A DNA stretch of 42,146 nt from an uncultured Pseudomonadota bacterium (lineage in GTDB: Bacteria; Pseudomonadota; Alphaproteobacteria; Rs-D84). The notes under the pieces were generated by a model. It had not been told where the DNA came from. It did not search any database and was given only the letters and a program-made list of their open reading frames with translations. How positions within the stretch are numbered: the first letter of the stretch is position 1; every line of letters starts with the position of its first letter. The DNA is taken from NCBI GenBank assembly GCA_902787305.1, contig CADAFS010000010.1, positions 1-42,146 of the forward strand, given 5' to 3'. Shown piece by piece: positions 2,757-23,226 of the stretch. Made by a program: the position numbers and the translations under genes.

Positions 2757-5700
2757 TTAGATGCCAATCCGGTGCGACATTTTCATCATAAATATAGATT
2801 CATTTCCAAATTCATGCGTATTATTCGGATTCACGCGATATATAAACCCAAGTGCCCCATCGGTAAATTCACCGATTTTTTGCTGATACGACGCATTAAA
2901 CCGAACCTCACGCGCATGTGACGCAATATCAATATCACGCACACCGGCATTTGAAATCACCAAATCATACCGGTCTTCGTCATCGGTCACAATATCATAG
3001 TCGGCATAATCATAATACATCTTTCCATGGCGCACCGCCAACGGTAACGACACACCAAACGAAAAACTATGTGCATCCACACCAAGCGAAAAGGCATTCG
3101 AATCCAATTCAGAAAGCGATATTATCGCGCCACCGTCCACACCCGGGGTCGTGCGCGCAAATGTTGCCCGCGCATGCGCACGCACATCATCAAACAAATT
3201 CCAATACGCATCGGCATCAACATACCGCGTTTCCGCCGCCCCCAATCCCAAAAGCCCAGTTCCCGATGCACCAAGCAATGTATCACTTTCATGTGCAACA
3301 CCAAAACTTGTTGTCAAACCAAAATTCTTTGCGCGCCACCCAACACTTGATTGCACCGCCGAAAAATTCCCCAACTTCATGGGTTCCAGGTTTGCCGAAA
3401 TCGTCGGATCATTGGCAAGTAAACCTTCATCCGTAATCGCACCCGAAACACTGCGTGCACCAAAGAACAAATTACCATATTTATATTCCGCGCCCACCGA
3501 CGTCGCATTCGATGCAAGACCAAAAATCGGATTCGACGCACCACCGAATCGTGATTCCCCGTCCGTCAAATAACGCTGATAATCTGCAGAAATTTTCCAA
3601 GAATCATTTGCATATTCAAACCGCATATTATCAACACCGCCCATACCGTCGTCATAGTTGCGTTCACCCCTTGTAAAACCAAACGACATTTTTCCAATAT
3701 GCGTCATATTATCGTCATTCGCACGCACACGCAAATCGCCCAATACATCGCCCATATAAAGCGCGTGCCGCCCGTCCGACCCAAGTTCAAAATTATTTTT
3801 CCAAATACGCGGCAACCGCATTGTTCCATCCACGCTTTCCAAGACATCGTATGCCGCGGTACTTATCGCGACGCGCCCCATGTTCAACGCCCCCGAACCA
3901 CGAAAACCCGTCGTTGTCGCCGCGCGCCAATACGCATTACCCGACGTTGACACAATATCGCCACCCGAATAGAAATACAAATTTGTCCCTGGCGTTGTTG
4001 CACGTTCAAGATTTATTACACCATAACCAAAAACTTCTTTGAACACATCCAAATAGTTTTCATTATTGTTATCTATGCGCCACTGATACGACGCGGGCAT
4101 TTCATACATCGATTGCAAGTGCGCGGCAAGCGCAGATTCCGTAAGTGTTTGTCCGGAACTAAGCCGCCCCAAATATGGTCCATCCGCCGTTAGTGCCATC
4201 AACATAAAAATTTGCTGTGGTGTCATATAGTAAAACGCAGATGTCAGCACCCCCGCCGCGCCCGCCGCCGCCGCGGTCGCCATTTCATCGGTCACACCAA
4301 CCGCCGCAAAGCACCACGGATCAATTCCCGCACCACCTGTTCCGGCGGTGCCACACGTGCGCGCCTTGTAATAAGTCATACCGTTGGTTGGGTCATTAAC
4401 CGCCCATTGTGCCAATTTATATGGGTCCGTGTTTGTATCGGTGTTTGGCGCAATTCCGCTTTCGCCCGCCGTGGGCGCACCCACCGCAACAACCGACATA
4501 AACAAATGTTCAAGGTTCGAATAAACCAACGGCGCCGCATTTTCAAATGTCGCGGCCAACGGAGAATCTGACCATTGTGCATTTGTTTCAAATCCACCCG
4601 TTGAAAAAACCGTCAATGGGGAATACGATACCCCAAGTGAATTAAAAAAAGATGTCGCGTTCGTTTGTGGTAAATTATTGCTATCCGTTGCACCATATGC
4701 ACCCGCAATTAGATTTTCAAATGTTGTTTCGTAATTACCCGCACCGCCCGCAAGCACCGTTTGAATTGTTGCCGCACTTGTTAAATGCAACGGTTCAATC
4801 ACATCAGTATTTGCGATAATGCTAACCCGTGAACGCCCGCCGGAAACGTCCCCCGAACGCGCCGCCGCATTCACCATTGCGGAATAATTATAGTAATCCG
4901 TTTGCTGCAATTGTTTGTATTGAAGAATTGTCCCCGCGCTCATCAAATATGCACCATCGGCACGCCCATCACCATCTAAATCAATATATAAATACGGATT
5001 ACCAACACTCATATAACCGCGATAAGTATGTGTTTGCGTTTCATTTGACAATGTCACCGCATAACCATTAACCGTCACATTTAATTCTTCGTCGAACAAA
5101 GTCACCGTATCACCGGTGGCAAGGTTTGTTCCCGCCATTGAACACGTTCCCACATTAAGTGGACTGGCCAAATCAACTATATGTGTCCCACCACCGGTGC
5201 GGTAAATTGTCATTTGGCCATTTGGCATAAAACCTATATAGTCCGCATTTGAATACCCCGCGGTATTTCCACCAACAATTTTGGCAATCACATTATCCGC
5301 ATCTGTCGCCGCATTGTTATAAACCGCCGTCCCAGAATTAGATAAATCAAAAAAACCTAAAAATACGGAATCTTCCACCGTGGTATCATCATTTATTGAC
5401 GATGCATCAGTCCCAGTAATGATTTTATTATTGTAATACTTACTGGAAATCATTGTATTGCTTGCCGGATTTAACGATGACGCCCCGTTCGTTGTTGTCC
5501 ATATAACAAACTTGTCCGACAATGACGTATTTGCCGCGGCGTTTATACCATTTGCCGTGATTAACGCAACATTGACCGGGCGCCCGCCTTCAACCGGGTC
5601 GTTGCCCAAATTATAACCACTTAAACTAATTGGTGCATATGTATTTGAATCACGCAACGTCCGCATTCCCAAATACCCACGCGCAAGGGGCGAATACCCC

Positions 5701-6383
5701 CGCATCAAAAGCAAATAATTTTCTTGTTGGTTCATAAATTGAAAGTTCTTATATAAAATACTTGTCGTATCCGCCGGGGCGTAATACGACAAATTTTCCG
5801 CATAGTTTTTACTTTCCGCCGCCGCATTTGGCAACAACGGCCCATACGGCAAACCATTTGCGAACAAAGGTACACCGATTCCGGGATTATCACCACCGCC
5901 ACCACCGGAACCCCCACCGCCACCGGAACCACTGCCCGTGTATCCGTTATCGTTTTCCGCATCAAAAACATCAGTCAATAAAAAAAGCCCACCTACAACA
6001 ACGGCGGCACCCGCCGCCGCCAATATCATTCCTTGGGCGGTGGACAGCCCACCGAACAACCCACCCGTTCGCTCTGGCGCACGGCGGGACCTGTATTTTC
6101 TAATTTGCTGGTCGCACTTTGACGCATCCGCACCATACATCTGTAAAATCTGGGCCGCACGCAGGTCATTATTCATGAGTGCCGTACAAACAAGTGACAA
6201 TCCGGTTCCATCAACAAAGTTTATATTTGCACCCGCCGCAACCAACGATTGCACCTGGCGAATATCGGCATTTCGCGCCGCGGCCAATAACTGTGACGCA
6301 AGACCAAACGGCGTCGGGGCCGCCGCATGCACCGCAAACGGACACAAAAACAAAGCAAATACAACCAATCGTATGAATTTCAT
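2757..6383 (-). CDS. Autotransporter-like surface protein with degenerate subtilase passenger
   Basis: 1208 residues. The start is set at the ATG at 6383, which gives the signal peptide MKFIRLVVFALFLCPFAVHA; the GTG at 6401 adds only six residues. Order: signal peptide; ankyrin-like segment (about 37-88: ADIRQVQSLVAAGANINF, then DLRAAQILQMYGADAS); hydrophobic helix about 119-136; Gly/Ser linker about 150-164; passenger; C-terminal beta-barrel from about residue 920. The passenger resembles S8 autotransporter subtilases (VNVALITANGIN, VLTSAFYYMTPQQI, FGYGVINLERAT), but catalytic positions are changed. The Asp of V-I-D-T-G is Thr276, and the Ser of G-T-S-M-A is Glu700. It is therefore probably an inactive scaffold or adhesin. 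The protein ends in Ile rather than Phe. It is transcribed alone from a TGGACA/TAAAAT promoter. Confidence 0.75.
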   Translation of the reverse strand: MKFIRLVVFALFLCPFAVHAAAPTPFGLASQLLAAARNADIRQVQSLVAAGANINFVDGTGLSLVCTALMNNDLRAAQILQMYGADASKCDQQIRKYRSRRAPERTGGLFGGLSTAQGMILAAAGAAVVVGGLFLLTDVFDAENDNGYTGSGSGGGGGSGGGGGDNPGIGVPLFANGLPYGPLLPNAAAESKNYAENLSYYAPADTTSILYKNFQFMNQQENYLLLMRGYSPLARGYLGMRTLRDSNTYAPISLSGYNLGNDPVEGGRPVNVALITANGINAAANTSLSDKFVIWTTTNGASSLNPASNTMISSKYYNNKIITGTDASSINDDTTVEDSVFLGFFDLSNSGTAVYNNAATDADNVIAKIVGGNTAGYSNADYIGFMPNGQMTIYRTGGGTHIVDLASPLNVGTCSMAGTNLATGDTVTLFDEELNVTVNGYAVTLSNETQTHTYRGYMSVGNPYLYIDLDGDGRADGAYLMSAGTILQYKQLQQTDYYNYSAMVNAAARSGDVSGGRSRVSIIANTDVIEPLHLTSAATIQTVLAGGAGNYETTFENLIAGAYGATDSNNLPQTNATSFFNSLGVSYSPLTVFSTGGFETNAQWSDSPLAATFENAAPLVYSNLEHLFMSVVAVGAPTAGESGIAPNTDTNTDPYKLAQWAVNDPTNGMTYYKARTCGTAGTGGAGIDPWCFAAVGVTDEMATAAAAGAAGVLTSAFYYMTPQQIFMLMALTADGPYLGRLSSGQTLTESALAAHLQSMYEMPASYQWRIDNNNENYLDVFKEVFGYGVINLERATTPGTNLYFYSGGDIVSTSGNAYWRAATTTGFRGSGALNMGRVAISTAAYDVLESVDGTMRLPRIWKNNFELGSDGRHALYMGDVLGDLRVRANDDNMTHIGKMSFGFTRGERNYDDGMGGVDNMRFEYANDSWKISADYQRYLTDGESRFGGASNPIFGLASNATSVGAEYKYGNLFFGARSVSGAITDEGLLANDPTISANLEPMKLGNFSAVQSSVGWRAKNFGLTTSFGVAHESDTLLGASGTGLLGLGAAETRYVDADAYWNLFDDVRAHARATFARTTPGVDGGAIISLSELDSNAFSLGVDAHSFSFGVSLPLAVRHGKMYYDYADYDIVTDDEDRYDLVISNAGVRDIDIASHAREVRFNASYQQKIGEFTDGALGFIYRVNPNNTHEFGNESIFMMKMSHRIGI

Positions 6384-6406
6384 AAATTCTCTCTGTATCA
6401 CATGCC

Positions 6407-7173: not shown

Positions 7174-8055
7174 ATGGACGGAGAGATGAAACGCCACAGC
7201 ATATTTTTTATCGCGATAGTTTGCGCGGTTGCGCCGGTTTTGTGCGCGCACGCCGCGGTATCAAAGTGCCAAAAGACCAGCATGCAACGGTGTCTTGATT
7301 CCGCGTGCGCAATAAATATCGGCATGAATCCGTCCGCCCGGTGCCAGTATTGTGGCACATCCGCCGCCGGCAATCCACCATCGCAAAAGGGTTTATCAAC
7401 AATAACCGCGGGGCAATCAACAAAATATGTTTTAACCGACCGCGAACTGCGCGTTGCGCCGTCCGACCCGGGCCGACGGTATATCTGGGCCACAACCGAA
7501 TGCATTAAACGGTTGCCCGATTGCACGGCGGACGATGTATCCGACATATACGACAAACTTATTGAACAATCGTGCAAGGCCGCGGGCGTCAGCATGCAAA
7601 CCGCAAGCGCGATGCAAACAATAAACAAAAAGCCAACAAAATCATCATGCAACGACGCACTTACCGTATGCATAAACAAAAAGTGTGGCACGACATTTGA
7701 AAACTGTGCCGAAGACGCGATATTCACCCGTTCCATCGCCGAATGCGCGGCGGAATCAACGGGTTGCGACGATTATATCGCGGAATTTAGAACAAGTATA
7801 ACAAACGACCGCAAAACCGCGGCGGCGCGACGCGAAAGCGTGCTGCAAAACCTGGTCAAAGATTATCAAAGCACGCGTGAATCCAAGGTTGCCGGCGCAA
7901 AAACAAACTGTAAAAACGGCACAACATTTGAAACATGCGTCACCGCGACATGCAACAATAATATGCCGAACAAATGCGACAATAACAAAACCGAACGGTC
8001 AATGGCGGAAAGGTTGTGTCAGTTCTATAAAACGGCATGCACGGTGCTAAAATAA
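7174..8055 (+). CDS. Secreted Cys-rich repeat protein, small member
   Basis: 293 residues (289 if the ATG at 7186, preceded by GGAG, is used). The signal peptide ends around VLCAHA. The mature protein carries many Cys, including one complete motif C-x6-C-x4-C-G-x2-F-x2-C starting at residue 159 (CNDALTVC, then CGTTFENC). Looser copies include CQKTSMQRC, CVTATC and a C-terminal C-x6-C (CQFYKTAC). The helices between are rich in Lys, Arg and Ala. No known domain is recognised. It is the first gene of a two-gene operon; its stop at 8055 is two bases before the next ATG, so translation is probably coupled. Its role is presumably in the periplasm or at the surface, with disulfide-bonded helical hairpins. 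Confidence 0.7.
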   Translation: MDGEMKRHSIFFIAIVCAVAPVLCAHAAVSKCQKTSMQRCLDSACAINIGMNPSARCQYCGTSAAGNPPSQKGLSTITAGQSTKYVLTDRELRVAPSDPGRRYIWATTECIKRLPDCTADDVSDIYDKLIEQSCKAAGVSMQTASAMQTINKKPTKSSCNDALTVCINKKCGTTFENCAEDAIFTRSIAECAAESTGCDDYIAEFRTSITNDRKTAAARRESVLQNLVKDYQSTRESKVAGAKTNCKNGTTFETCVTATCNNNMPNKCDNNKTERSMAERLCQFYKTACTVLK

Positions 8056-8057
8056 AA

Positions 8058-9563
8058 ATGAAAACGAATTTGAAAATTTTTTGTGGCATTTCGATTTTCG
8101 CGATTATCGCGGTGGCAAATATCGCACATGCGGCAACCACGCCCGTTGTCAACAATAAAACGTCACAGTTTAATGATGTGCTGTCGGAAATGGGCGCGAA
8201 CGCGACCGATTCGTCGAACGCCGCACTCGCCGAAACAATTCGCCGGCAACGCGCATTGCTTGATGCGGCGGGCGATACAGGTGCGACCACAACCGGCGGA
8301 ACAAACATAACAACGGCGAACGCGTGCGACGCGGCATTGCGTAAATGTATGTCGGAAAAGTGCGGGGCGGATTTCACAAAGTGCGCATCGGATTCCACAA
8401 CCGTTTGGGACAATAAAATGGACGCGTGCCGTCGCAACACGAAATGCACCGGCCACGAATACACATTACTTGCACCGGAAATCTTGGCGGATCGGAACGC
8501 GGCAATTGAACTTTCATATTATAATTCCGTTGTGAATTGTGGCAACCGGTACAACAATTGCGTATTTGGAATTTGTGGCAAATCATTGGAAAATTGCCTT
8601 TCCAAATCCGCGGGCGACAGTGCGATTGCAAAATGCAAATCAATCGCCGACGAATGCCGTGAACAGGATAGTGGCCTTGCCGCGCGCGTGATGGGCGTGT
8701 TTGGTGACCGGCGAAACATCGCCGCCACAGAGGCACAAAGGGACGAAAAACGCCTTTACGAATTGCGCGATTTAATGCGCACCCAATGCACACGATTCGG
8801 TGCAATGTTTGACGAAAGAACACTTGATTGCGTATATACCGTGAACTTCTTTGCGGGCACGGACAACACACTTATGGCATCAAAGAAACTTTATTCCGGC
8901 GACACATTCCAATGCACACCGGATTGGTTTGGTGTTGATATCACAACATATATGGAAAACGCCCAAAGACTTACCCGGTCGCAAACATCCGCATCCGCGG
9001 CGGCAATGGGTGCGGGCCTTGGGACGGCGGCGTCACTTTGGACATCGGGCGCGGTTATGCGCGGAATCGACACACAAAATGCGGAAAAACAGGCCAAAGA
9101 AGCATGCACGACCGTCGGTGGCGAATGGGTCAGTGCCGGATTCAACCAAGGCAGCAAATGCGACATGCGCAAACCAAAGGCCAATTGCGAAGGCCAAGGT
9201 TACACATGGGACGACAAAACCGGCTGTTCCGGCGGCAACACTGGCACCCCCGATAGAAATAACAGAAAACCAAATTCGTCAACCGGGGGGGGTAGTAATA
9301 AGGGAATGGGCGCTAAAGATTCTTCAAGTCAATTTAGTATTACCAAAGAAGGAGATATGGGGCACGATTCAAGAGCCGAAGGGACAAATATAAATTATAA
9401 TGCCGCCACATCTAATTTTGGAACAAATACTGACAACAGATCTAATTCTAATTTCCTTAACAACGAAAACAAACCTAGTTTTAATTTATCAGACGGATTC
9501 AAAGGTCTAGGTAGCCAATCAAGTAGCAGTGGCACCAGTGGTGAATCCGGGGGGGGGCAGTAG
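8058..9563 (+). CDS. Secreted Cys-rich repeat protein with Gly zipper and low-complexity tail
   Basis: 501 residues. I use the ATG at 8058, which gives the signal peptide MKTNLKIFCGISIFAIIAVA, rather than 8037 inside the previous gene. Two complete motifs C-x6-C-x4-C-G-x2-[FL]-x2-C begin at residue 90 (CDAALRKC, CGADFTKC) and at about 161 (CGNRYNNC, CGKSLENC). The segment FQCTPDWFGVD followed by a Gly/Ala zipper (AAAMGAGLGTAAS) aligns with the 819-residue neighbour at 11326. From about 9285 the DNA turns AT-richer and encodes a Ser/Asn/Gly tail bounded by poly-G runs (9285-9292, 9549-9557). Loss of one G in the second run would bypass the stop and end at 9612. Function is unknown. Confidence 0.7.
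   Translation: MKTNLKIFCGISIFAIIAVANIAHAATTPVVNNKTSQFNDVLSEMGANATDSSNAALAETIRRQRALLDAAGDTGATTTGGTNITTANACDAALRKCMSEKCGADFTKCASDSTTVWDNKMDACRRNTKCTGHEYTLLAPEILADRNAAIELSYYNSVVNCGNRYNNCVFGICGKSLENCLSKSAGDSAIAKCKSIADECREQDSGLAARVMGVFGDRRNIAATEAQRDEKRLYELRDLMRTQCTRFGAMFDERTLDCVYTVNFFAGTDNTLMASKKLYSGDTFQCTPDWFGVDITTYMENAQRLTRSQTSASAAAMGAGLGTAASLWTSGAVMRGIDTQNAEKQAKEACTTVGGEWVSAGFNQGSKCDMRKPKANCEGQGYTWDDKTGCSGGNTGTPDRNNRKPNSSTGGGSNKGMGAKDSSSQFSITKEGDMGHDSRAEGTNINYNAATSNFGTNTDNRSNSNFLNNENKPSFNLSDGFKGLGSQSSSSGTSGESGGGQ
9285..9292 (+). repeat. Poly-G tract of 8 inside a coding region
   Basis: Eight G in a row encode part of a Gly run where the 501-residue Cys-rich protein passes into its Ser/Asn/Gly tail. 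A shift by one base would truncate the protein near 9391. It is a candidate slippage site. Confidence 0.6.
9549..9557 (+). repeat. Poly-G tract of 9 at the end of a coding region
   Basis: Nine G lie six bases before the annotated stop (9561-9563). With eight G the frame passes this stop and stays open for 17 further codons (Ser/Gly/Asn/Ala-rich) to TAG at 9610-9612. The extension matches the composition of the preceding tail. Confidence 0.7.
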
Positions 9564-9682
9564 CCCTGCGAATGCCGGTCACGGTAACGCCTCTGGCAAC
9601 AAAGGCGCTTAGTATAAATTACTTTCATTTTGAAAATGTTTCAACTTTTAACATAGATAGTATCACTAACACTAACCACTTA

Positions 9683-9730
9683 CACTCTCCACTAACTCTT
9701 CCCTGCCCTGCACAACCTTTATCCCGTCCG
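9683..9730 (-). pseudogene. Duplicated 3'-end fragment of the two-TM protein gene
   Basis: This matches 9881-9927, the 3' end of the neighbouring minus-strand gene, with a few mismatches and one indel. Read on the minus strand in the matching frame it gives ADGIKVVQGREELVESVSG and a stop, against ADGIKVVKSREELVGVLV and a stop in the gene. The family A palindrome (9737-9873) separates the two copies. Confidence 0.65.
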
Positions 9731-9736
9731 CGGGCC

Positions 9737-9873
9737 AAGTTCTCCTCCTTTGGAGGAGTACGGTGTGGAACACCGGGAGGTGGTTAGAGCATTCGTTATT
9801 ATTCTGTATTCTCTAACCACCCCGCCCGTCACCGAGGGCGGTGCCGTGGCACCCCTCCAATGGAGGGGAACTT
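9737..9873. repeat. Family A palindromic element, copy 1
   Basis: A 137-bp nested palindrome with ends AAGTTCTCCTCC/GGAGGGGAACTT and a central GGTGGTTAGAG/CTCTAACCACC stem around an AT-rich spacer. Related elements lie at 10973-11135, 18911-19032 and partly at 20688-20741. Its right terminus supplies the stop codon of the minus-strand gene ending at 9872. No coding capacity. The interval 9564-9871 otherwise holds only the duplicated gene fragment and CTAACACTAAC-like words. Confidence 0.75.
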
Positions 9874-10909
9874 ACACTAACACTCCCACTAACTCTTCCC
9901 TACTCTTCACAACCTTTATCCCGTCCGCAATCCATTCGGCGGAATTTTTATCCAAATCCATAATACTATCGGTCCCCAGGTACAAAATCGGTTTCAACCC
10001 ACGTTCTTCCCGCGCCCGCCGCAACGCCACAATCGGCGAAGGCCGCTGTTTCCCCGCCGCAAACCAATCAATTTCGTCCGGCACCCAGAAATCATCGTCA
10101 TCATGCACCGCAATCGCATAACCGTTCGCAACAATTAAATCATCGTGCACCTTGGCATCAATCCCCGCCGTGCGCAGCCACGCACACACCTTTTCAACCG
10201 GACTTTCGTCCGCGGACGCATCACCGTCTGACGGCGCACCATCATTATCATCATCAAAATTTATATCGGCAAAGACCGGCACATCCGCCGTATCCGCCGA
10301 CGCATCCATATCAAAGTCCGTTGGTATCGGCATCGCACCATACGCCGCTACATCTTCAGATTTCGCCGCGCCCACCGGTTCGGCGATTGGTTCACGCGCC
10401 GGCTCAACCGAACCCGCCGCCCCCACGGGCGCAACAGGCATCGCCGTATCCGGCCCCGGTACATTTTGGCGATTAAATACCGACATTTGCCGCGCGCCAT
10501 AGTTTTTCTGTGCCCGCATAAATGTTTCGCGCATCTCCATCGGCACACCCGCACGAACCGGTGGCAAAGTTTCCCGCGCCGTCACAACCGGCACAACCGG
10601 TTCTGGCTTTGGGGCCGGCGCCGTTTCGGTTAAACACTTTGGCAAAGGCAATTTAACCGGCATTTCTTTATTTCGCACCGTCAACACCGTTGTCGCAATA
10701 TAAAGCGGAACCGCCGCCAAAACCAAGATTCCAAACACCGCACCCGCAAACCCATGCAATTGCAAATGTAAAAGTTTCGTCAAATGCGCCACCGAAAACA
10801 TATTAAAATTAAACAACCCGCGCAAAATCGCCCACATCACGAACACATAAATCCCCGTCCACGCAACCGCGCGCCAAAAATTCGCAAAAGATTTCTTTTT
10901 ATCACTCAT
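9872..10909 (-). CDS. Two-TM protein with long acidic/Pro linker and unknown C-terminal domain
   Basis: 345 residues, family not recognised. No cleavable signal; two membrane helices at about 12-31 (AVAWTGIYVFVMWAILRGLF) and 54-76 (AGAVFGILVLAAVPLYIATT). A variable linker rich in Pro, Ala, Glu and Asp spans about 85-232. A folded cytoplasmic-looking domain follows (about 235-345) with DDDDFWVPDEIDWFAAGKQR and PSPIVALRRAREERG. The C-terminal codons and stop run into a family A palindrome, and a second copy of the 3' end lies beyond it, so the present C-terminus may be altered. The ATG at 10909 follows AAGGTT. Palindromes flank the gene on both sides. No partner gene is evident. Confidence 0.6.
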   Translation of the reverse strand: MSDKKKSFANFWRAVAWTGIYVFVMWAILRGLFNFNMFSVAHLTKLLHLQLHGFAGAVFGILVLAAVPLYIATTVLTVRNKEMPVKLPLPKCLTETAPAPKPEPVVPVVTARETLPPVRAGVPMEMRETFMRAQKNYGARQMSVFNRQNVPGPDTAMPVAPVGAAGSVEPAREPIAEPVGAAKSEDVAAYGAMPIPTDFDMDASADTADVPVFADINFDDDNDGAPSDGDASADESPVEKVCAWLRTAGIDAKVHDDLIVANGYAIAVHDDDDFWVPDEIDWFAAGKQRPSPIVALRRAREERGLKPILYLGTDSIMDLDKNSAEWIADGIKVVKSREELVGVLV

Positions 10910-10972
10910 TTACACTAACCTTTTTCACCCATAATCCGTTCAGCGGAATTTGGGCACATATTCCAGAATTCA

Positions 10973-11135
10973 AAGTTCCCCTCCCAATCTCCGCAAAATT
11001 TTTCAAATTTTGCGGGTGATGATCGGAGGGGTGCCCAGTGGAACTGGGCGGGGTGGGGGTGGTAATAAAATATATTTTTTTTATTACCCCCACCTCGTCG
11101 CCGTTCGGCGCCACTCCTCCGGGGGAGGAGAACTT
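10973..11135. repeat. Family A palindromic element, copy 2
   Basis: A 163-bp nested palindrome: ends AAGTTCCCCTCC/GGAGGAGAACTT; internal hairpin CCGCAAAATTT/AAATTTTGCGG near 10990-11014; central GGGGGTGGTAATAAA/TTTATTACCCCC. Same family as 9737-9873. It occupies much of the gene-free stretch 10910-11325, with a family D unit and the promoter of the next gene making up the rest. Confidence 0.75.
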
Positions 11136-11154
11136 CGCTCTCTGGAACACTAAC

Positions 11155-11199
11155 CACCCGTCGCGGCACACCGCGCCACGGTCGTGACAGACTAATACC
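11155..11199. repeat. Family D repeat, copy 2
   Basis: A 45-bp GC-rich imperfect palindrome, CACCCGTCGCGGCAC through GACTAATACC, that matches 298-342 at 41 of 45 positions. A more divergent relative may lie at about 20838-20888. Confidence 0.65.
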
Positions 11200-11293
11200 A
11201 CCTACTATTATAGACATATTTTTCTTTCTGTCAATAAAGTATTTATTTTTATATTTTTTTCAAAAAACACTTTTTTATTACCTTTTTCTATGG

Positions 11294-11299
11294 TATAAT
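11294..11299 (+). promoter_or_regulatory. Extended -10 promoter of the 819-residue Cys-rich protein
   Basis: TATAAT at 11294-11299 preceded by TG (11291-11292) forms an extended -10. The -35 region is only a T-rich run. The Shine-Dalgarno AAAGGAGG follows at about 11311, before the ATG at 11326. Confidence 0.6.
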
Positions 11300-11325
11300 G
11301 TCACAGATAGAAAGGAGGGTTTTTC

Positions 11326-13785
11326 ATGCGAAATATGCTGAAAACTGTATGTAAAAGTGTAACATGCTTATCAATTATCGCGATTGCGACCGTCGCTTTT
11401 GCGGCGACGGACGTGTCACGCGGAACGGCGACCGCGAATCGTGGACGTGGCACGGCCAATGCGCGTATGCCGTCTATTCCTATTTTGCCGGTAAGTGCCG
11501 TTGGAAATATGACCGTTAGCAGTAATGACATCGACCCAAAGCCGACGCCACAACCGAAACCAACGCCAACACCGACGCCGACACCAACACCGGACCCAGA
11601 TCCAACCCCAGATCCCGACACACCGGTTCCACCGGCACCAAATCCGCCAACCCCGGAATGCCCTGATGGTGGTGTGGAAAATTCGTCCTATTCTGTCGAA
11701 AACTGTATGAACGATGTTTTGGGCTGTGTCAACGGCGGTGCGTTACCGAACGGCATAAATTCGCTATTTAACGAAGACCTGCGCAATTCCATCGTAAATG
11801 GTATGGGGCTTTGTTTGACCCAAGTGGAAAAGTGTGTTTCCACCGTTCGTCGCAATTGCCAATATGTTTACGCATCGACATCGGATGTATGGCTTGACTT
11901 TAACGCGCGCAAGGTTCAACCGGAATACTATGCGTTCGTTTTGCGTCAAACGGGCCTTACCCCGACCCAGGCGGAAAACACATGTTTGTTGCTTGACCGC
12001 AACACATACGGCGCGGCGTTTAACGCGGTTTCCGTCAGTGACAATGTGACGTCTGAATACGACCAACGCGTCGGCGCATACAACAGTGCAAAAAATGATT
12101 CACTTAGCAAACTAAACCCACTTGGTGCGCGCGTAAATGATACCGGCATTGATGGCAAACGCGGATACTATGCGCGTTGGGACGCGGAAAACGCACAATG
12201 CTTGCTGCGCGTGGCGGCGTATAACAAAGACACACCAATTACCAACAGTTGGCTCTTTGGTGCGGTTGGTGATGACGCAATGGCCGAAGTGTGGCGTGCA
12301 ACCGGATCTTCGTTCACATGCAACAAAGATTTGTTTGGATTCTCACTTATGCCGACAACGAAAACAGTTGCGGCGACCGCAATTCCCGGTGGAACATTAC
12401 TGGGCGCGGGAATCGGTGCATTGGCGGGCCACGGCGACCGCAACTTTGATTGCACAATTGAATCTATGCGCAACACGTTGCTAAAAGAATTACAAGACAA
12501 CCAAAAAATTGGCGCAATCAATCAGTATATTTCGTCGGATTTGTCCAGCACATCAAAATCGATGACACTGGGCCAATGCCGCGAAATTGTTGACCTTTAC
12601 GACATGTGGGAAATGGGCAAAGAAGCAGTCAACACATGTCGCGAACCAGGAAGTTCTTCAACCAAACAAGACAAATGCACACTAGAAACCGCCGGACTTC
12701 ATTTTGATTGTGAAGGCGACGAAGCGTATATAAAACAATGCTTATCTAATGCTATAGAACTATTTTGTACAACCGCGCCTTGCGCATGTGATGCATTAAA
12801 GAATGAAACAAATATCGAAACATTTAAATCGTTTGGTAATGTTGAACCTGAAAAAATTAAACAAGCAATCATTGATTGGGTCAACCAACACCCAGACGCA
12901 TGTTCCAAGAACTGTTCCAGCAATACAACCACAACCGAAACACACGAATGCAGATTTGTTAATCTGAATCAATCATGGCGCGACGGCACAGATGTATATT
13001 GCAACAAAGGCCCAGGCGAATGTATCGGCGAAGACGAATTCAAACGGCAACTTGATGCACTGTCCAAGATATTCAATTCAATTGAAATTCTTGCCGGCGA
13101 AAAAGGCAACCGTCTAAAAACAACATTGGTTGGTGCGGGCATTGGTGCGGCAACCGGTGGAACCGCAACGGCAATCACGGCGTTTGTTGAAAAGAATAAC
13201 ATCAATTGCCGCGTGGCGGACGGCCTGGCCAAGGTTGGATTCGGCAAATCATATTCAATCGACCGTCTGCGCGACTTCTATGTCAAATGGGCGTTGAATT
13301 TGCCGTCAACAATTGCGCCGACCGCGGTTGTCACGAACTGTGATAACTGGTCATTGACATGCGCGTTGTTCACGGATGCCAACGAATGTAGAAACGCAAA
13401 GTTCAACTATCGTCCGGGCAATTTGTCCAGCACGACATTGGTGACGAATCCATGCACCCCATCGGGCAGTGCATGTATCGCGAACGTCGGCGTGGCACAA
13501 TCGTATGGCGTATGCCTTGTGAACCCGACACCAACGCCGGGTTCCGACGAACCGGATCCGAACGCGGGACTGTCACGTGTTTCAAATTGCAACGAATGGA
13601 TTGATGCATGCAAACTGTTCACCACCGAAACCACTTGCAACGCGGCCAAGGTAATATATGTTCCGCGTTCAATGCGTGTTTCGAATGCATGCAAATATCA
13701 GTCGCGGATTAATGAATGCCGTCCAAGTGCGCAAAAGGCCAAACAATACTTGGACATAAACAATTGTCCGATACGACTTGAATAA
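11326..13785 (+). CDS. Secreted Cys-rich protein with PT-repeat and two Gly zippers
   Basis: 819 residues. The signal peptide ends near ATVAFA (residue 26). A Pro/Thr/Asp linker (about 67-108) recalls cell-surface spacer regions. Cys pairs spaced C-x6-C follow (CMNDVLGC, CLTQVEKC). The segment FTCNKDLFGFS and a Gly zipper (GGTLLGAGIGALAGHG, about 352-367) align with the 501-residue protein at 8058. A second zipper is near residues 604-616 (VGAGIGAATGGTA). The C-terminal part repeats an N-C-x-x-W-x(3-4)-C-x-L-F-T element twice (about 676 and 756). Part of the middle (about 12,655-12,870) has different codon choice. AAAGGAGG precedes the ATG, and a strong hairpin terminator follows. Family and function are not recognised. 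Confidence 0.7.
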   Translation: MRNMLKTVCKSVTCLSIIAIATVAFAATDVSRGTATANRGRGTANARMPSIPILPVSAVGNMTVSSNDIDPKPTPQPKPTPTPTPTPTPDPDPTPDPDTPVPPAPNPPTPECPDGGVENSSYSVENCMNDVLGCVNGGALPNGINSLFNEDLRNSIVNGMGLCLTQVEKCVSTVRRNCQYVYASTSDVWLDFNARKVQPEYYAFVLRQTGLTPTQAENTCLLLDRNTYGAAFNAVSVSDNVTSEYDQRVGAYNSAKNDSLSKLNPLGARVNDTGIDGKRGYYARWDAENAQCLLRVAAYNKDTPITNSWLFGAVGDDAMAEVWRATGSSFTCNKDLFGFSLMPTTKTVAATAIPGGTLLGAGIGALAGHGDRNFDCTIESMRNTLLKELQDNQKIGAINQYISSDLSSTSKSMTLGQCREIVDLYDMWEMGKEAVNTCREPGSSSTKQDKCTLETAGLHFDCEGDEAYIKQCLSNAIELFCTTAPCACDALKNETNIETFKSFGNVEPEKIKQAIIDWVNQHPDACSKNCSSNTTTTETHECRFVNLNQSWRDGTDVYCNKGPGECIGEDEFKRQLDALSKIFNSIEILAGEKGNRLKTTLVGAGIGAATGGTATAITAFVEKNNINCRVADGLAKVGFGKSYSIDRLRDFYVKWALNLPSTIAPTAVVTNCDNWSLTCALFTDANECRNAKFNYRPGNLSSTTLVTNPCTPSGSACIANVGVAQSYGVCLVNPTPTPGSDEPDPNAGLSRVSNCNEWIDACKLFTTETTCNAAKVIYVPRSMRVSNACKYQSRINECRPSAQKAKQYLDINNCPIRLE

Positions 13786-13804
13786 ATCATGTGGTGTCCC
13801 CGAT

Positions 13805-13833
13805 AAACGTCCGCCCCGCGCGGACGTTTTTTT
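13805..13833 (+). terminator. Rho-independent terminator
   Basis: AAACGTCCG (13805-13813) pairs with CGGACGTTT (13821-13829), followed by a T-run. It lies 20 bases after the stop of the 819-residue protein gene. Confidence 0.85.
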
Positions 13834-13898
13834 ATCCCCCGCCCCACTAACACTAACCCCTGCCTCGCTGTAGCAATAGCGGGACTAACACTACCCAC

Positions 13899-13927
13899 TT
13901 GCACCAACCACTTTTTTATGATAAAAT
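13899..13927 (+). promoter_or_regulatory. Promoter of the 983-residue Cys-rich protein
   Basis: TTGCAC (13899-13904), spacer 17, TAAAAT (13922-13927). The first 11 bases, TTGCACCAACC, and the TTATG before the -10 are also found in the promoter before the gene starting at 20512 on the other strand. Confidence 0.7.
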
Positions 13928-13954
13928 ACAGGGAACAAGTAGAAGGGGTTTCTT

Positions 13955-16906
13955 TTGAAACGTTTATCTTTTGCATTAGTAATTTTTGCATGCGTATCCG
14001 CCGCATCCGGCGCAACACGCCAAGATACAGTTGCACGTTCAGCGACGGCGCCGGCACGTGTTTCACGTGCACCACAAACAGATAATAATAACATAACAAC
14101 TACACGCGCTGTCACATCACGCAGTGCAACACAAAACCCCGCACAACCCACACAACAACGTGGGCGTGCAGCAACCGTACAAACAACAAACGCACGCGCG
14201 GCGAAACAAAGTGTAATCAGCACCGGAACCAAGGTTGCGGCGGCCACGGAAAACACGGCGGTTGACCAGGTGTGCTGGGCAAAATTCAGTGGTTGCATGG
14301 ATTCATTTTGTATGTTGGATAACGCGAACGGCGGCCGTTGTATTTGCAGTGACAAAAACGCCGAATATGATGCAATCCTCGAGGAGATTCAAAAACTTGA
14401 TGAACAAAGTTATCAACTTGCCACCGTCGGTGTCGAACGCATTGAAATGGGCGACGCGGTCGATGCGGTTATGTCAAAAACCGATTCGGTGACAAAGCGC
14501 GTGACGGCGGACGCGGCAAAATCAAAACGCCAATCATTGGATTTAAGTTCATGGAATTCGCTGGACCTGGACTTTGATGCCGACGCCGAAGACATTTTTG
14601 ACTTTTCATCGGACGGCGTTTCAATTGCCAACAAAACCGGTGATGCACTTTATCGCGCGGCGGCAAAACTTTGCAACGCACAAATTCCCGAATGCAAATC
14701 GCAATCGACATTGATGGATTTAATGTATAAACAGCGCGTCCGTTCCGATTGCACCGCGTATGAAAACAGCCTGCGCGCCGCCCGCACACAAAGTGCGCAG
14801 AAACTTTACGCCGCCCAAAGCGCCATGCGTGAAGCCGCATTGGAACAATACCGCAACGCGAACAAATACGACCTTGGGCAATGCACGGTGCAATTCAAAC
14901 AATGTATGCAAACAACCGGTGGTTGCGGCGATGATTTCACCGGGTGTGTTGAATGGTCTGTGCGTGAAAACATGGTCGGCAATTCAAATAAAGAAAAAAC
15001 AATCAAAGGAACGGTATCGAAAATTAAATTACGTGCAGAAACATATGATACGTTAGAAGCGAAAAAAGCCTTGTGTATGACGGTGACCGAACAATGCGTA
15101 AATGTCCGTGACCAAGTATGGGATGCCTTTTTGCGAGAGGCCGCACCGCAAATAAAATCTGCGGAATTGATTGTGGAATCAAACATGCGCACATCGTGTA
15201 TTTCGAACATATCAAACTGTTTTCAAAAGGCGTGCAAAGAAACCATGGACCCGAACAATCCGGATGGTTCATACGACATGTGCCTTACACGACCAGAAAC
15301 GGTTGATTCGGCATGTAAAGTCGAAGTTGAACCTTGCGAAAAGGCGATACCGGATATTATGACATATGTCCATGCACGTTTAGCATCCATGCGCGTTGAT
15401 TCATGCACCAATGAATTTAAGGCATGCTTGCAATCCGAAGACCGCTGTGGCGAAGATTACACCCAATGTATTGGATTGGACACCGACACAATCGTCGAAA
15501 TGTGTCCGGCGGATAAATTGGTTGCGTGCCAATACGATTCCAATTTGAATAAGGGCAACATAGGGACGTATAATAACGATTATGTATACAAAAAACAAGA
15601 CGTATACAATAATTTAAAAGAAATCGCCACCGGCATATTCCTGAACATAGACAACAACATGCTTTCGGCATGTCAAAAGGCCGCCAATGCCGCAATGATA
15701 AAAGTCTGCGGCAGTACGGAAAATTGCGACGAAATGATTGTAGATAACGGTTTGGGCTCACGTAGTTTAGAGTATAAAATTTGTAAATATAGCGGAAGCG
15801 AAGCAGAAAATGATATGAAGATCAAATACAATGATTGTCGGCCAAATATAGATATGATTACCGATGACGAACTTGGGCGCAACACAACGGATATGACACA
15901 TACCGATTCTAAGGGCAACATAAATTATGTTTATCATGATGAAGAACCACTGGCAGGCGTCATTGATGGTATTATTCACTGGGAGAGTGTAGAGTTTAAT
16001 AAAGATGGAGTTATTGACGTTGTTAAGTATTGGAACACTGTTGAAAAAGATGAAAATGGCAAGGACGTAGAAATTGAACATAAAGAAAAAGTAAATTCTG
16101 AATTGGCGGCATTGCAAACAAGTGTTCAAAATGTGATTAGTGCGATAGAGGAAGATCCGAAAGTGAAATACTGTATGACCACCGGACGCGAATTTCAAGG
16201 TTACAAAGAAATGTTAGGTGCAAAAGGCGATCAAACCTATAACAAAGCGCGTTTTCCAGAACTGACCGCACAAATGCGTCGAACCATATCTGCATCTGCA
16301 TTGTCACAAGTTAGAACGAACTATTATACAAAATATGATGAATTAAATGCCAAGATGTTGAAAGATTATTCAAAAATTGCGGAACGTAAAGCCGAAATTG
16401 CTGGTCAAAACAATAAAGATCTACGGCGCGAAATTGCACGCCAGTCTTGTTTGTATATGGCCGATATGTCATCGCTTGCACGTTCGGCCGAACCGCCAAA
16501 GAGTGCCGGTGGCAAGATTATAGCTGGTGTCGCTCTTCTTGGGGCCGCGGTTGCTGTGCCGTTGACTGGCGGTCTGAGCGCAATAGCAGCTGGACATATT
16601 GTCATGATGTCTGCAGCGGGTGGTATCGCCGGCATCGGTCTACTGGGTAATGCGGGCTCTGGAAGCGCAAATGGCGACCAAAGAGGCTTTGTCCACGAAG
16701 ATAATGTCCCGCTTGTTGCATCCAAAGAAATGAATCAGTGGAATTACAAAGAAACAATAACAACAACGTTTGATTGGGAAAACTTGGTTTGCCACAAATG
16801 TGTTCGTTCTACACAGTGTGCAGAAACAAAAAATCCATTATTCGGTAACAAGTATTGTAAAACCTGGGCCGAAACCACCGAAGAATGCAACGACACCCAA
16901 TTCTAA
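13955..16906 (+). CDS. Large secreted Cys-rich repeat protein
   Basis: 983 residues from a TTG start preceded by AGAAGGGG at about six bases. The signal peptide ends near SAASGA (residue 20). A Thr/Ala/Arg/Gln-rich low-complexity stretch (20-100) precedes the Cys domain. Motifs: C-x6-C-x4-C at 107 (CWAKFSGC) and 415 (CISNISNC), and full C-x6-C-x6-C-G-x2-[FY]-x2-C at 310 (CTVQFKQC, CGDDFTGC) and 484 (CTNEFKAC, CGEDYTQC). Single C-x6-C pairs occur elsewhere (CNAQIPEC, CMTVTEQC, CKVEVEPC). A hydrophobic Gly/Ala zipper (about 850-893) and a C-terminal Cys cluster end the protein. Codon use shifts around 15,740-16,170. It is monocistronic with its own promoter and terminator. The function is unknown; a disulfide-braced extracytoplasmic scaffold is my inference. 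Confidence 0.7.
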   Translation: MKRLSFALVIFACVSAASGATRQDTVARSATAPARVSRAPQTDNNNITTTRAVTSRSATQNPAQPTQQRGRAATVQTTNARAAKQSVISTGTKVAAATENTAVDQVCWAKFSGCMDSFCMLDNANGGRCICSDKNAEYDAILEEIQKLDEQSYQLATVGVERIEMGDAVDAVMSKTDSVTKRVTADAAKSKRQSLDLSSWNSLDLDFDADAEDIFDFSSDGVSIANKTGDALYRAAAKLCNAQIPECKSQSTLMDLMYKQRVRSDCTAYENSLRAARTQSAQKLYAAQSAMREAALEQYRNANKYDLGQCTVQFKQCMQTTGGCGDDFTGCVEWSVRENMVGNSNKEKTIKGTVSKIKLRAETYDTLEAKKALCMTVTEQCVNVRDQVWDAFLREAAPQIKSAELIVESNMRTSCISNISNCFQKACKETMDPNNPDGSYDMCLTRPETVDSACKVEVEPCEKAIPDIMTYVHARLASMRVDSCTNEFKACLQSEDRCGEDYTQCIGLDTDTIVEMCPADKLVACQYDSNLNKGNIGTYNNDYVYKKQDVYNNLKEIATGIFLNIDNNMLSACQKAANAAMIKVCGSTENCDEMIVDNGLGSRSLEYKICKYSGSEAENDMKIKYNDCRPNIDMITDDELGRNTTDMTHTDSKGNINYVYHDEEPLAGVIDGIIHWESVEFNKDGVIDVVKYWNTVEKDENGKDVEIEHKEKVNSELAALQTSVQNVISAIEEDPKVKYCMTTGREFQGYKEMLGAKGDQTYNKARFPELTAQMRRTISASALSQVRTNYYTKYDELNAKMLKDYSKIAERKAEIAGQNNKDLRREIARQSCLYMADMSSLARSAEPPKSAGGKIIAGVALLGAAVAVPLTGGLSAIAAGHIVMMSAAGGIAGIGLLGNAGSGSANGDQRGFVHEDNVPLVASKEMNQWNYKETITTTFDWENLVCHKCVRSTQCAETKNPLFGNKYCKTWAETTEECNDTQF

Positions 16907-17061: not shown

Positions 17062-18090
17062 ATGATTGAAAAAAACTGGATGGCTTTGATAAAGCCGAAA
17101 AAACTGAATATCACCACCGATGAACATAATCCGAACATGGCCAAATTGGTCGCGGAACCGTTGGAAAAAGGTTTTGGTCTTACGCTTGGCACGGCGTTGC
17201 GTCGCGTTCTGTTGTCTTCACTTCAGGGTTGCGCGCCACTGTATGTTAAAATCGAAGGTGTTCAACACGAATTTTCAAGTATCCAAGGCGTGCACGAAGA
17301 TGTCGCGGATATTTTACTGAACCTTAAGGGTGTTTATTTCAAGGCAAATTCCGAAGGTCAGCACAAGGTTAGTTTGCACGTGACGGGTCCGGCCGTGGTG
17401 AAGGCGGGCATGATTGAATGCACCAGTGCAATAGAGGTTATGAACCCCGACGCGGAACTTTGCACATTGGACAAAGGCGCGCAGTTTGATATGGAAATCA
17501 CACTTGGCACGGGCCGCGGATATGTTCCGGCGAACGCACATGCCGATGGATTGCCACTGGGCGTGATTCCGGTTGATTCAATCTTTTCGCCGATTTTGAA
17601 TGTCGCAAGCGTGGTTTCTGAAACCCGTGTTGGGCAATCAACCGACTATGACAAATTGGAAATGACCGTCAAAACAAACGGCAGTGTCACACCCGAAGAT
17701 GCAATCGCTTTTGCGGCGCGCATCTTGACCGATCAATTGACTTTGTTCATCAATTTCGAAGACCCGGCGCAAATCGCGGCACCGACCGAAGAAGAAGTTG
17801 CCAAAGATGCGTTGCAGTTTGATCCGAAATTGCTAAAACGCGTGGACGAATTGGAATTGTCTGTGCGTGCGAACAATTGTTTGAAAAACGACAAAATCAA
17901 CTGGCTTGGCGAATTGGTCCAAAAGACCGAGGCGGACATGTTAAAGACCCCGAACTTTGGACGCAAGTCATTGAACGAAATCAAAATCCAATTGGAAGCG
18001 ATGGGCCTTGGCCTTGGCATGGAGGTCCCAGGTTGGCCGCCAGAAAACATTGCAGAGTTGGCCAAGAAATACGAAGACCCATATAAGTAA
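17062..18090 (+). CDS. rpoA: DNA-directed RNA polymerase alpha subunit
   Basis: 342 residues, the usual length. The alpha subunit dimerises to seed assembly of RNA polymerase, and its C-terminal domain binds UP elements and activators. The N-terminal domain shows the conserved [18 protein letters not shown] block (about 38-55). The C-terminal domain shows [14 protein letters not shown] and [13 protein letters not shown] (about 271-317). The ATG follows AAAGGAAA. It is normally cotranscribed after rpsK, but here it is on the opposite strand about 3 kb from rpsK, with its own promoter, and is followed by rplQ after a 108-base gap. Confidence 0.98.
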
Positions 18091-18198
18091 AATTATTGGG
18101 AATTCAAAAAACGCGTGTTACTGAATCTTTGATTTGGGACACGAAATATGGTGCAATCCCAGGGAACTGGGCGGAAACAAAAAATAAAGGAGTAACCG

Positions 18199-18762
18199 AT
18201 GAGACACCAAAAAGCCGGTCGCACTTTTAATCGCGACACAAATGCACGCAAGGCCTTGTTTATTGGGCTTGCGAAAAACCTGATTGAAAAAGAACAAATC
18301 AAAACAACTTTGCCAAAGGCCAAGGATCTGCGCAGTGTCGTGGAAAAATTGGTTACCCGCGCCAAGGTTGACACCGTTGCGAACCGCCGCCTGACCGCGT
18401 CGGAATTAGGCAACGCGTGCGACGCAACTGTGAAAAAATTGTTCACGGTGCTGGGGCCACGCTATGCGAAACGCCCGGGCGGATACACCCGCGTGTTAAA
18501 GGCCGGTTTCCGCTATGGCGATGCCGCACCGATGGCGATTATCGAATTCATTGACCGCGATGTGAACGCGAAAAAGCCACAAAAACCAGAGGTCGCCGCG
18601 GCCAAGGCCGAAGAAGCGACCGCAACCGATGCGCCAAAGGCGGCCAAGGCACCAAAGGCCGAAAAACCGACGACAAAAGCACCGGCCAAAGAACCGGCGG
18701 CGAAAAAAGCCACCGCGGCCAAAAAGACCGTTGCGGTAAAACGCCGCGCCACTGGGAAATAA
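18199..18762 (+). CDS. rplQ: 50S ribosomal protein L17 with long basic tail
   Basis: 187 residues. The L17 body (residues 1 to about 119, opening [13 protein letters not shown], with the [14 protein letters not shown] loop) is normal. It is followed by about 68 residues of low-complexity Ala/Lys/Pro sequence; such Lys/Ala extensions occur in some alphaproteobacterial ribosomal proteins. L17 binds 23S rRNA near the peptide exit tunnel. The ATG at 18199 follows AAGGAG. It is the second gene of the rpoA unit, ended by repeats and a hairpin. Confidence 0.97.
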
Positions 18763-18787
18763 GAAGTTGTTGATTATTTGTAATTAA

Positions 18788-18863
18788 CGTCATACCGCCG
18801 CAAGGCGGTATCTTGTTGAACTTCGACAAATGCAAAGAGATACCGCCCTTCGGCGGTATGACG
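18788..18863. repeat. Family B dispersed palindromic repeat, copy 2
   Basis: Paired hairpins TACCGCCgcaaGGCGGTA and TACCGCCcttcGGCGGTA with outer inverted ends CGTCATACC/GGTATGACG. Same architecture as 169-242. Its right half starts the 53-bp direct repeat found again at 20785-20837. Confidence 0.75.
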
Positions 18864-18891
18864 GAAAAAAACACGGGCGCATTCGCGCCCG
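18839..18891 (+). repeat. 53-bp direct repeat, left copy
   Basis: Matches 20785-20837 at 51 of 53 positions in the same orientation. The two copies bracket the 493-residue secreted protein gene. The unit combines half of a family B repeat with a GGGCGC/GCGCCC hairpin that can end rplQ transcription. Confidence 0.8.
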
Positions 18892-18895
18892 TTTA
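18871..18895 (+). terminator. Probable terminator of rpoA-rplQ
   Basis: Hairpin CGGGCGCattcGCGCCCG followed by TTTATT, about 110 bases after the rplQ stop and within the repeated unit. Confidence 0.6.
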
Positions 18896-18910
18896 TTCCA
18901 CAGAGCATGA

Positions 18911-19032
18911 AATTCACCCTTTCCTATGGAAAGGGGTCCGGCTGAACAGCCGGGGGGTATGGGTGATAAAAAACATTATTACCACTACCCCGGCGGGATT
19001 CCCCACCACCCCTTCGCCAGCGAGGGGGAATT
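18911..19032. repeat. Family A palindromic element, copy 3
   Basis: A 122-bp nested palindrome: ends AATTCACCCTTTCC and AGCGAGGGGGAATT; hairpin GTCCGGCTGaacAGCCGG; central GGTATGGGTGATAA/TTATTACCACTACC. It abuts, and slightly overlaps, the stop codon of the minus-strand gene ending at 19031. Confidence 0.7.
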
Positions 19033-20512: not shown

Positions 20513-20537
20513 AAATCCCCCCCTTACAACCAACCAA

Positions 20538-20566
20538 ATTTTACCATAAAATGAAGGTTGGTGCAA
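20538..20566 (-). promoter_or_regulatory. Promoter of the 493-residue secreted protein
   Basis: Minus strand: TTGCAC (20566-20561), spacer 17, TAAAAT (20543-20538). Transcription would start near 20531, consistent with the TTG start at 20512. Strikingly similar to the promoter at 13899-13927. Confidence 0.75.
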
Positions 20567-20589
20567 GAGCGTTCGTAAAAAAGAAAATA

Positions 20590-20660
20590 ATTCCAGAGAA
20601 TCGTCACACCGCTGAAGAGCGGTGCCCATGCATCGCGACAGCGATGACTTGCCCCGCAGG
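20590..20660. repeat. Family C repeat, copy 1
   Basis: A 71-bp unit with hairpins CACCGCtgaagaGCGGTG and CATCGCgacaGCGATG. It matches 40078-40148 with about five differences. The surrounding stretch 20513-20952 holds only this repeat, a partial family A element, the 53-bp repeat, a family D-like segment and the terminator of the ribosomal operon; I see no gene there. Confidence 0.75.
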
Positions 20661-20687
20661 GAATGCGATGTGCGCTTTGCGACATCG

Positions 20688-20741
20688 CACCACTACCCCG
20701 TCCGCGTTCGCGGCCACCCCTTCGCCAGCGAAGGGGACTTG
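20688..20741. repeat. Partial family A palindrome
   Basis: CACCACTACCCCGTCCG through CACCCCTTCGCCAGCG and GAAGGGGACTT resemble the right half of the element at 18911-19032, including the shared CACCCCTTCGCCAGCG. The left half is missing. Confidence 0.6.
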
Positions 20742-20784
20742 TCTGCGACGCAATCGCGGGCATTTGCTATCGCAAAGCCGGATG

Positions 20785-20837
20785 GATACCACCCTTCGGC
20801 GGTATGACGGAAAAAAACACGGGCGCGTTCGCGCCCG
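20785..20837 (+). repeat. 53-bp direct repeat, right copy
   Basis: Same orientation as 18839-18891, two mismatches. Comprises half a family B unit plus a GGGCGC/GCGCCC hairpin. It lies between the secreted protein gene and the end of the ribosomal superoperon. Confidence 0.8.
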
Positions 20838-20925
20838 CACCCGTCACGGCCACGGTACCGCTTTGCGGTGACAGGACGGACTTACACCTTGTCTCGCTGT
20901 AGCAATAGCGAAAGCGGATAACACT

Positions 20926-20951
20926 AAAAAACACCCTTTCGGGTGTTTTTT
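20926..20951 (-). terminator. Terminator of the ribosomal superoperon
   Basis: AAAAAACACCC, loop TTTC, GGGTGTTTTTT. On the minus strand the stem is followed by a T-run. It starts two bases after the rpsK stop, so the superoperon ends at rpsK and does not run on into rpoA. Confidence 0.85.
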
Positions 20952-20952
20952 A

Positions 20953-21330: not shown

Positions 21331-21394
21331 TTTTATTTTTTCCTTTGATTAGATGTCTTCAATTAACTATCGTGTTAATCTCTACCCAATTTTA

Positions 21395-23200: not shown

Positions 23201-23226
23201 GCGCCGTCTCTCTTTCCTATTCCCGA

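Follow-up and report, generated by a model that had tools for sequence, protein, structure and literature searches.

What kind of proteins are the four cysteine-rich exported products encoded beside rpoA-rplQ in an uncultured alphaproteobacterium of the order Rs-D84, and what could they be doing in its cells? The genes lie on contig CADAFS010000010.1 (assembly GCA_902787305.1), the 42,146 nucleotides of which, hereafter the window, belong to a genome of 904 kb in 19 contigs. Members of the order such as Enterousia have genomes below about 1 Mb, no respiratory chain and few transporters, and a partner-dependent life has been proposed for them (PMC12306168); similar metagenome-assembled genomes come from the rumen, other animal guts and termites (PMC11257099). 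A preliminary description of the window, made without database searches, had listed four open reading frames (ORFs) with signal peptides and a recurrent four-cysteine motif. All four ORFs, here P1 to P4, were retrieved (Table 1), and their N-termini resemble Sec signal peptides with a putative small-x-small end site. The P2 ORF overlaps P1, its first ATG giving 508 residues and an internal ATG 501, and P3 and P4 follow P1/P2 on the same strand in a cluster reaching rpoA-rplQ. As judged from sequence, P1, P2 and P4 are members of an undescribed protein family built on a six-cysteine unit, and P3 is their conserved partner.

A repeated six-cysteine unit in P1, P2 and P4

The motif initially described, C-x6-C-x4/6-CG-x2-[FYL]-x2-C, is present once in P1 (at residue 159), twice in P2 (97 and 168) and twice in P4 (310 and 484), which has additional half motifs at 107 and 415. 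These numbers agree with the preliminary description and lie far above chance, since none of 5000 residue shuffles per protein reached the number of full motifs. The C-x6-C spacing alone is enriched too (11 copies in P4 against a shuffle mean of 1.5; 0/5000). The motif is real but it is not the whole unit: it corresponds to the first four cysteines of a six-cysteine framework, C1-x6-C2-x4/6-C3-xn-C4-xn-C5-x5/9-C6, as seen in P1, where the single full motif forms the beginning of unit II. The strict six-cysteine pattern was counted once in P1, twice in P2, three times in P4 and five times in tandem in a paralogue on contig 3 of the same genome (L119:1105-4356); with 2000 shuffles per protein, at most one such unit arose by chance, in fewer than 0.5% of trials. 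When a longer C4-C5 loop and one irregular spacing are allowed P4 has four units and P1 three, and among the proteins counted the units number 2 to 5 per protein. Unit I of P1 has the same cysteine order as unit I of P4, and its C60 and C134 would form an additional pair. P1, P2 and P4, all with putative signal peptides, each have at least one six-cysteine unit, which P3 lacks. The five-unit paralogue, a protein of 1084 residues encoded on the minus strand, matches the P1 profile only weakly (E 1.4e-5), and more divergent family members were therefore probably missed by our profiles.

When profiles were compared with profiles, P1, P2 and P4 matched one another at the unit, and two units of P4 matched each other, none of 40 column-shuffled controls scoring as high in either case. 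P3 had been presented as a half-motif member. It does contain C-x6-C seven times, without any full motif, but homology of these repeats to the motif in P1, P2 or P4 was not detected: 26 of 40 (P3-P4) and 6 of 40 (P1-P3) shuffled controls scored as high or higher, and P3 was therefore rejected as a member of the family. It is instead a partner in the cluster, and its framework, although disulfide-like too, is of another kind. Its cysteine losses are mostly pairwise, for example 672/730, it carries two glycine-zipper segments (residues ~348-370 and 601-620) and it has a C-terminal module in common with P2 (profile comparison E 6e-6; 0/40 column-shuffled controls as high). The second gene of a sister-family pair was also tested as a P3 homologue and found to be unsupported.

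Paired loss of cysteines and proposed nested disulfides

A profile made from 47 aligned P4 cores holds more than 20 invariant cysteines, which are almost never lost singly across all the relatives examined. We counted the losses on a tree built with the cysteine columns masked. Columns 10/150 (C107/C247, bond type 1-6) vanish jointly in about one change, both cysteines being absent in sister-family proteins, and columns 220/279 (C317/C374, type 2-5) also in about one. Joint loss took about two changes for columns 332/348 (C427/C443, type 3-4) and three to four for columns 404/430 (C491/C517, type 2-5), bringing the total to about 7-8 changes on the tree. In P1, the 260/268 pair is missing jointly in one orthologue. 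The few apparent single losses fall at the ends of the alignment or opposite an unaligned partner column, and some were checked by cysteine spacing. Those at column 411 were discarded as apparent only, the paralogues concerned differing in architecture past this column. After crude trimming of signal peptides, 124 out of 143 family members have an even number of cysteines, although the binomial value attached to this parity is not a probability because related sequences are not independent.

Paired loss across paralogues and sister families supports nested disulfides linking C1 to C6, C2 to C5 and C3 to C4. The unit would consequently be an antiparallel twin C-x6-C hairpin, one half holding C1 and C2 and the other C5 and C6, with C3-C4 as an inner bridge. 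C2 covaries with a cysteine outside the four-cysteine motif, most likely the fifth cysteine, 25-57 residues downstream, and the view that this motif makes up a hairpin by itself was therefore rejected. The disulfide-locked helical architecture proposed at the outset gains support, but a C2 partner inside the motif does not.

A family so far found only in Rs-D84

Pfam and NCBIfam searches with P1-P4 and three neighbours, as well as Pfam searches with 47 P4 relatives, returned only chance-level or low-complexity matches, in keeping with the initial remark that no named family could be recognised. Sequence searches of PDB gave zero matches, and none was found in phage or plasmid collections. A PADLOC match of P1 to GajB (E 1.7e-5, 21.9 bits) was rejected as a stretch of a helicase model lying on a cysteine-rich exported protein.

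A search with the single P4 sequence was positive in 112 of 114 genomes from the order. The family of the window mostly has 9-12 P4-type matches per genome (range 7-12, up to 15 with the profile; the window's own genome was surveyed stretch by stretch), and Candidatus Enterousia family genomes measure about 0.9 Mb. Sister families mostly have 1 or 2 matches; one of them has 5-7, and three mostly have one short copy. The shortest relatives, found in sister families, consist of units I and II only, with unit I lacking C1 and C6, and have twelve invariant cysteines. In class-wide samples the P4-core profile matched 3 of 240 genomes and a single-copy profile 5 of 386, all within the order, to which the family appears to be confined as far as this non-exhaustive sampling reaches. 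P1-P4 diverge rapidly, with median identities of 44-56% versus 85-88% for rpoA, rplQ and secY in the same loci.

Conservation of the gene neighbourhood

The expectation that homologues would cluster together in related genomes was confirmed. The cluster lies beside secY-rpoA-rplQ in about 60 loci, together with a 345-residue membrane protein, and P1-P2-P3-P4 are syntenic beside rpoA-rplQ throughout the Candidatus Enterousia family; P1 orthologues adjoin P2 in about 38 loci and P3 occurs in 58. The clusters of many relatives include an OmpA plus carboxypeptidase-regulatory protein, the gene of which was not found in the window itself. In the same rpoA-rplQ place, one sister family carries a tandem of three P4-like genes together with P1- and P2-like genes. 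In another, among the best-preserved cases, a single copy stands directly upstream of rseP-bamA-skp-lpxD and also beside hpf and rubrerythrin (L176, L178 and L179; Pfam identities of the rseP-bamA-skp-lpxD neighbourhood were checked in L179), and in a locus of a sister family other than this one a family gene is near a bamA-like gene (L177). In the window's own genome one paralogue adjoins lpxB and lpxA. Genes that by eye are murG/ftsW-like adjoin one paralogue.

Predicted structures and comparison with known systems

The AlphaFold model of P4 (mean pLDDT, the predicted local distance difference test, 75.6; predicted template modelling score, pTM, 0.46) shows helices, predicted with confidence, along most of the unit region, where pLDDT is mostly 80-95. 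This region is followed by a beta domain, a 70-residue helix, a hydrophobic segment of low confidence and a C-terminal beta region bearing cysteines. The P1 model is entirely helical. A segment comparable to the hydrophobic one of P4 is present in about 31% of long family members, nearly always at 80-89% of their length. The best Foldseek E-values against PDB were 0.9 (P4) and 3.9 (P1) and the best VIA Z-scores 5.9 and 5.1, no more than noise would give with helical models; neither program found a PDB fold above noise for the whole P4 and P1 models, which is no proof of a new fold. For the proposed disulfide repeat, a nested six-cysteine twin-C-x6-C hairpin, the databases searched gave neither a family model nor a fold match.

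The twin CX9C/CX3C (CHCH) proteins of the mitochondrial intermembrane space consist of two antiparallel helices with nested bonds, outer to outer and inner to inner. The Rs-D84 unit would resemble them in having two cysteine pairs, two antiparallel helices and nested bonds, but its spacing is 6 throughout instead of 9 or 3, it would have the added inner C3-C4 bridge, and it is repeated 2-5 times in proteins of 300-1100 residues. No CHCH match was found with Pfam in P1-P4 or 47 P4 relatives, and no structural match was detectable. Plant alpha-hairpinins are small peptides in which nested disulfides lock a helical hairpin, with CX3C spacing and four cysteines per hairpin. The Rs-D84 unit may share the locked hairpin, but with C-x6-C spacing and six cysteines.

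A likeness by function only may be drawn with chlamydial OmcA/OmcB, cysteine-rich exported proteins that brace the envelope of a host-dependent bacterium and for which DsbA is the likely oxidant (PMC6752827). P1-P4 gave no match to the chlamydial cysteine-rich outer-membrane models of Pfam and NCBIfam. Moreover, the cross-links of the chlamydial outer-membrane complex (COMC) are described as lying both inside single proteins and between them (PMC6752827), whereas the even cysteine counts and paired losses in Rs-D84 point to bonds mostly inside each unit, and Rs-D84 has peptidoglycan genes (for example the murG/ftsW-like ones) and rod shape (PMC12306168). OmpA-like peptidoglycan-tethered proteins are related to the system as cluster neighbours in many relatives only, P1-P4 having no OmpA domain. 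The analogies with CHCH, for the unit, and with the chlamydial complex, for the layer, would concern how the proteins work; the family itself is, in our assessment, a member of neither.

Proposed oxidation of the exported proteins

A gene for a DsbA-like protein, anchored in the membrane and carrying CPYC, is present. Searches that were positive in control genomes detected neither DsbB nor VKOR in four genomes of the genus, of which three are 99-100% complete, and this raises the puzzle of how a fermenter without either detectable enzyme produces proteins holding as many as about 20 disulfides. A candidate partner of DsbA is a multi-pass membrane protein in which CPVC is invariant (L120:7986-8531; G000 contig 2, 10985-11530), without Pfam match, which lies at most about 2 kb from one P4 paralogue in four genomes. 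Within the order 56 of 59 genomes have it, but it is not specific to the six-cysteine system because it also occurs in 9 of 187 other alphaproteobacteria, these being small-genome ones.

Proposed role and alternative explanations

We propose, with a probability of about 0.55, that the family consists of disulfide-braced helical scaffold proteins of the periplasm or outer envelope, oxidised by DsbA and amplified in a lineage proposed to be partner-dependent. The proteins would leave the cytoplasm through Sec, the membrane-anchored DsbA-like protein would oxidise them, and they would fold as rigid strings of the nested hairpins. P2, P3 and many P4 types could touch a membrane via glycine-zipper or hydrophobic C-terminal segments, and in the many clusters that have one, the OmpA-domain protein might tie the layer to peptidoglycan. 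Together the proteins would make up a part of the outer envelope braced by disulfides, either a layer or a set of protrusions. It would probably stabilise the wall of very small cells and mediate contact with the organism on which they would depend. We infer the envelope location, in line with the envelope structure suggested in the preliminary description, as well as which of P1-P4 assemble together and their function.

Several observations weigh against this proposal. Strongly hydrophobic segments are missing from most family members, the tie to the outer membrane comes from gene neighbourhood only, and overall pTM values are low (0.46 and 0.38). The cysteine count is odd in 19 of the 143 members after the same crude trimming, the parity count is inflated by closely related sequences, and several cysteine pairs depend on one or two tree changes only. 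Finally, neither DsbB nor VKOR, which could re-oxidise DsbA, was found in the four genomes.

The most serious competitor, which we consider possible but distinctly less probable, is that the proteins are primarily surface adhesins or parts of a partner-attachment or nutrient-transfer apparatus, diversified by duplication, and not structural wall proteins. In its favour are the 7-15 P4-family matches per genome with tandem duplication, the fast divergence of P1-P4 and, for the order, a lack of standard uptake transporters and the proposed dependence on partners (PMC12306168). However, no adhesin domain was found by Pfam and NCBIfam in P1-P4 or by Pfam in 47 P4 relatives. Moreover, all family genomes, and most others in the order, have the proteins at a core locus that is conserved, and the copy presumed to be ancestral lies among envelope-assembly genes, an arrangement that would suit a housekeeping function in the envelope equally well. 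These same genes could be taken to indicate that the ancestral protein was a chaperone of the periplasm, or an accessory factor, acting in outer-membrane assembly and that it was amplified afterwards to serve different clients. One sister family has the single copy directly upstream of rseP-bamA-skp-lpxD in three loci, another has the L177 copy near a bamA-like gene, and the own-genome paralogue lies beside lpxB-lpxA. Such an origin seems improbable to us, as neighbourhood is its whole basis and chaperones are rarely so cysteine-rich, repeated or fast evolving.

Signal peptides, disulfides, hydrophobic C-terminal segments and gene amplification would also suit secreted effectors or toxins directed at host or neighbouring cells. 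We hold this to be very unlikely: Pfam and NCBIfam gave no match to a toxin, effector or secretion-system family, the phage and plasmid collections gave none at all, and the genes occupy one conserved housekeeping locus across family genomes. Least credible of all is that the cysteines are ligands for metal storage or metal-sulfur sites. High cysteine content is all that speaks for metal, whereas the cysteines are lost in twos and not fours, those lost jointly are up to 140 residues apart, and their counts are mostly even; we infer that they form disulfides.

A bolder version of the scaffold proposal, which we advance as speculation and think unlikely, is that the six-cysteine proteins build an envelope structure, braced by disulfides and defining the order, with which partner-dependent Rs-D84 bacteria hold other cells or feed on them, and that DsbA is recycled with no DsbB, VKOR or respiratory chain involved, possibly via the CPVC protein. 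Several percent of a genome of about 0.9 Mb that lacks respiration and most biosynthesis is devoted to this one uncharacterised exported family. "Hypothetical membrane-bound proteins" have been proposed to link Rs-D84 cells to their partners (PMC12306168), and the family is a concrete, testable candidate for them.

Other features of the locus

Table 1. Positions in the window of the genes, six-cysteine units and other segments discussed.
Feature	Position	Strand	Basis or remark
P1, 293 residues, putative signal peptide and three six-Cys units	7174..8055	+	Cys pattern; beside P2 in about 38 loci
P1 unit I: C32, C40, C45, C57, C110, C117; extra pair C60/C134	7267..7575	+	alignment Cys pattern
P1 unit II: C159, C166, C171, C178, C191, C198	7648..7767	+	homologous to P4 and P2 units
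P1 unit III: C246, C255, C260, C268, C282, C289	7909..8040	+	260/268 paired loss
P2, 508 residues (501 from second ATG), two units and C-terminal module common with P3	8037..9563	+	
P2 unit 1: C97, C104, C109, C116, C131, C137	8325..8447	+	Cys invariant in 36 orthologues
P2 unit 2: C168, C175, C180, C187, C200, C207	8538..8657	+	Cys invariant in 36 orthologues
P2 C-terminal module (GxxFxCxxxxFG block and glycine-rich segment) common with P3	8715..9020	+	profile comparison
345-residue protein, two N-terminal membrane helices predicted by eye	9872..10909	-	58 loci
P3, 819 residues, Cys-rich exported cluster partner	11326..13785	+	58 loci
P4, 983 residues, TTG start, four six-Cys units	13955..16906	+	9-12 matches in most family genomes
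P4 unit I: C107, C114, C119, C129, C240, C247; extra pair C131/C266	14273..14752	+	
P4 unit II: C310, C317, C324, C331, C374, C381	14882..15097	+	C317/C374 paired loss
P4 unit III: C415, C422, C427, C443, C454, C461	15197..15337	+	C427/C443 paired loss
P4 unit IV: C484, C491, C498, C505, C517, C525	15404..15529	+	C491/C517 paired loss
P4 predicted 70-residue helix, residues 772-841	16268..16477	+	residues 753-822 of the model, offset by 19
P4 hydrophobic segment(s), possible membrane hairpin, residues 855-894	16517..16636	+	hydropathy 2.0 and 1.6
rpoA and rplQ, conserved neighbours outside the system	17062..18762	+	rpoA by Pfam, rplQ by eye; 60 loci

Many exported proteins of the lineage have, read by eye, a Ser/Thr/Ala/Arg low-complexity stretch (SRGxA, ARSAT-like) after the signal peptide; it is found at the mature N-terminus of P3 and P4, of many paralogues and of P2 in some orthologues. 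Two loci encode, immediately downstream of P4 paralogues, cysteine-rich exported proteins of another type, without Pfam matches (L118:8030-9028 and L121:12650-14092). The 345-residue membrane protein has a soluble C-terminal domain and, with a median identity of 35%, is more divergent than P1-P4; it has no Pfam match, a single chance-level one being obtained among 8 relatives.

A protein of 1214 residues (2757-6401, minus strand) adjoins the cluster in 26 loci. The initial label of autotransporter could not be confirmed for this protein, since no barrel was matched in Pfam or NCBIfam up to E 1 and no passenger in Pfam; the only match, at its N-terminus, is ankyrin-like and sub-threshold. On the other side of the cluster (17062-29010), rpoA-rplQ and the adjacent secY and spc genes lie on opposite strands; most relatives differ in this, which suggests a local inversion.

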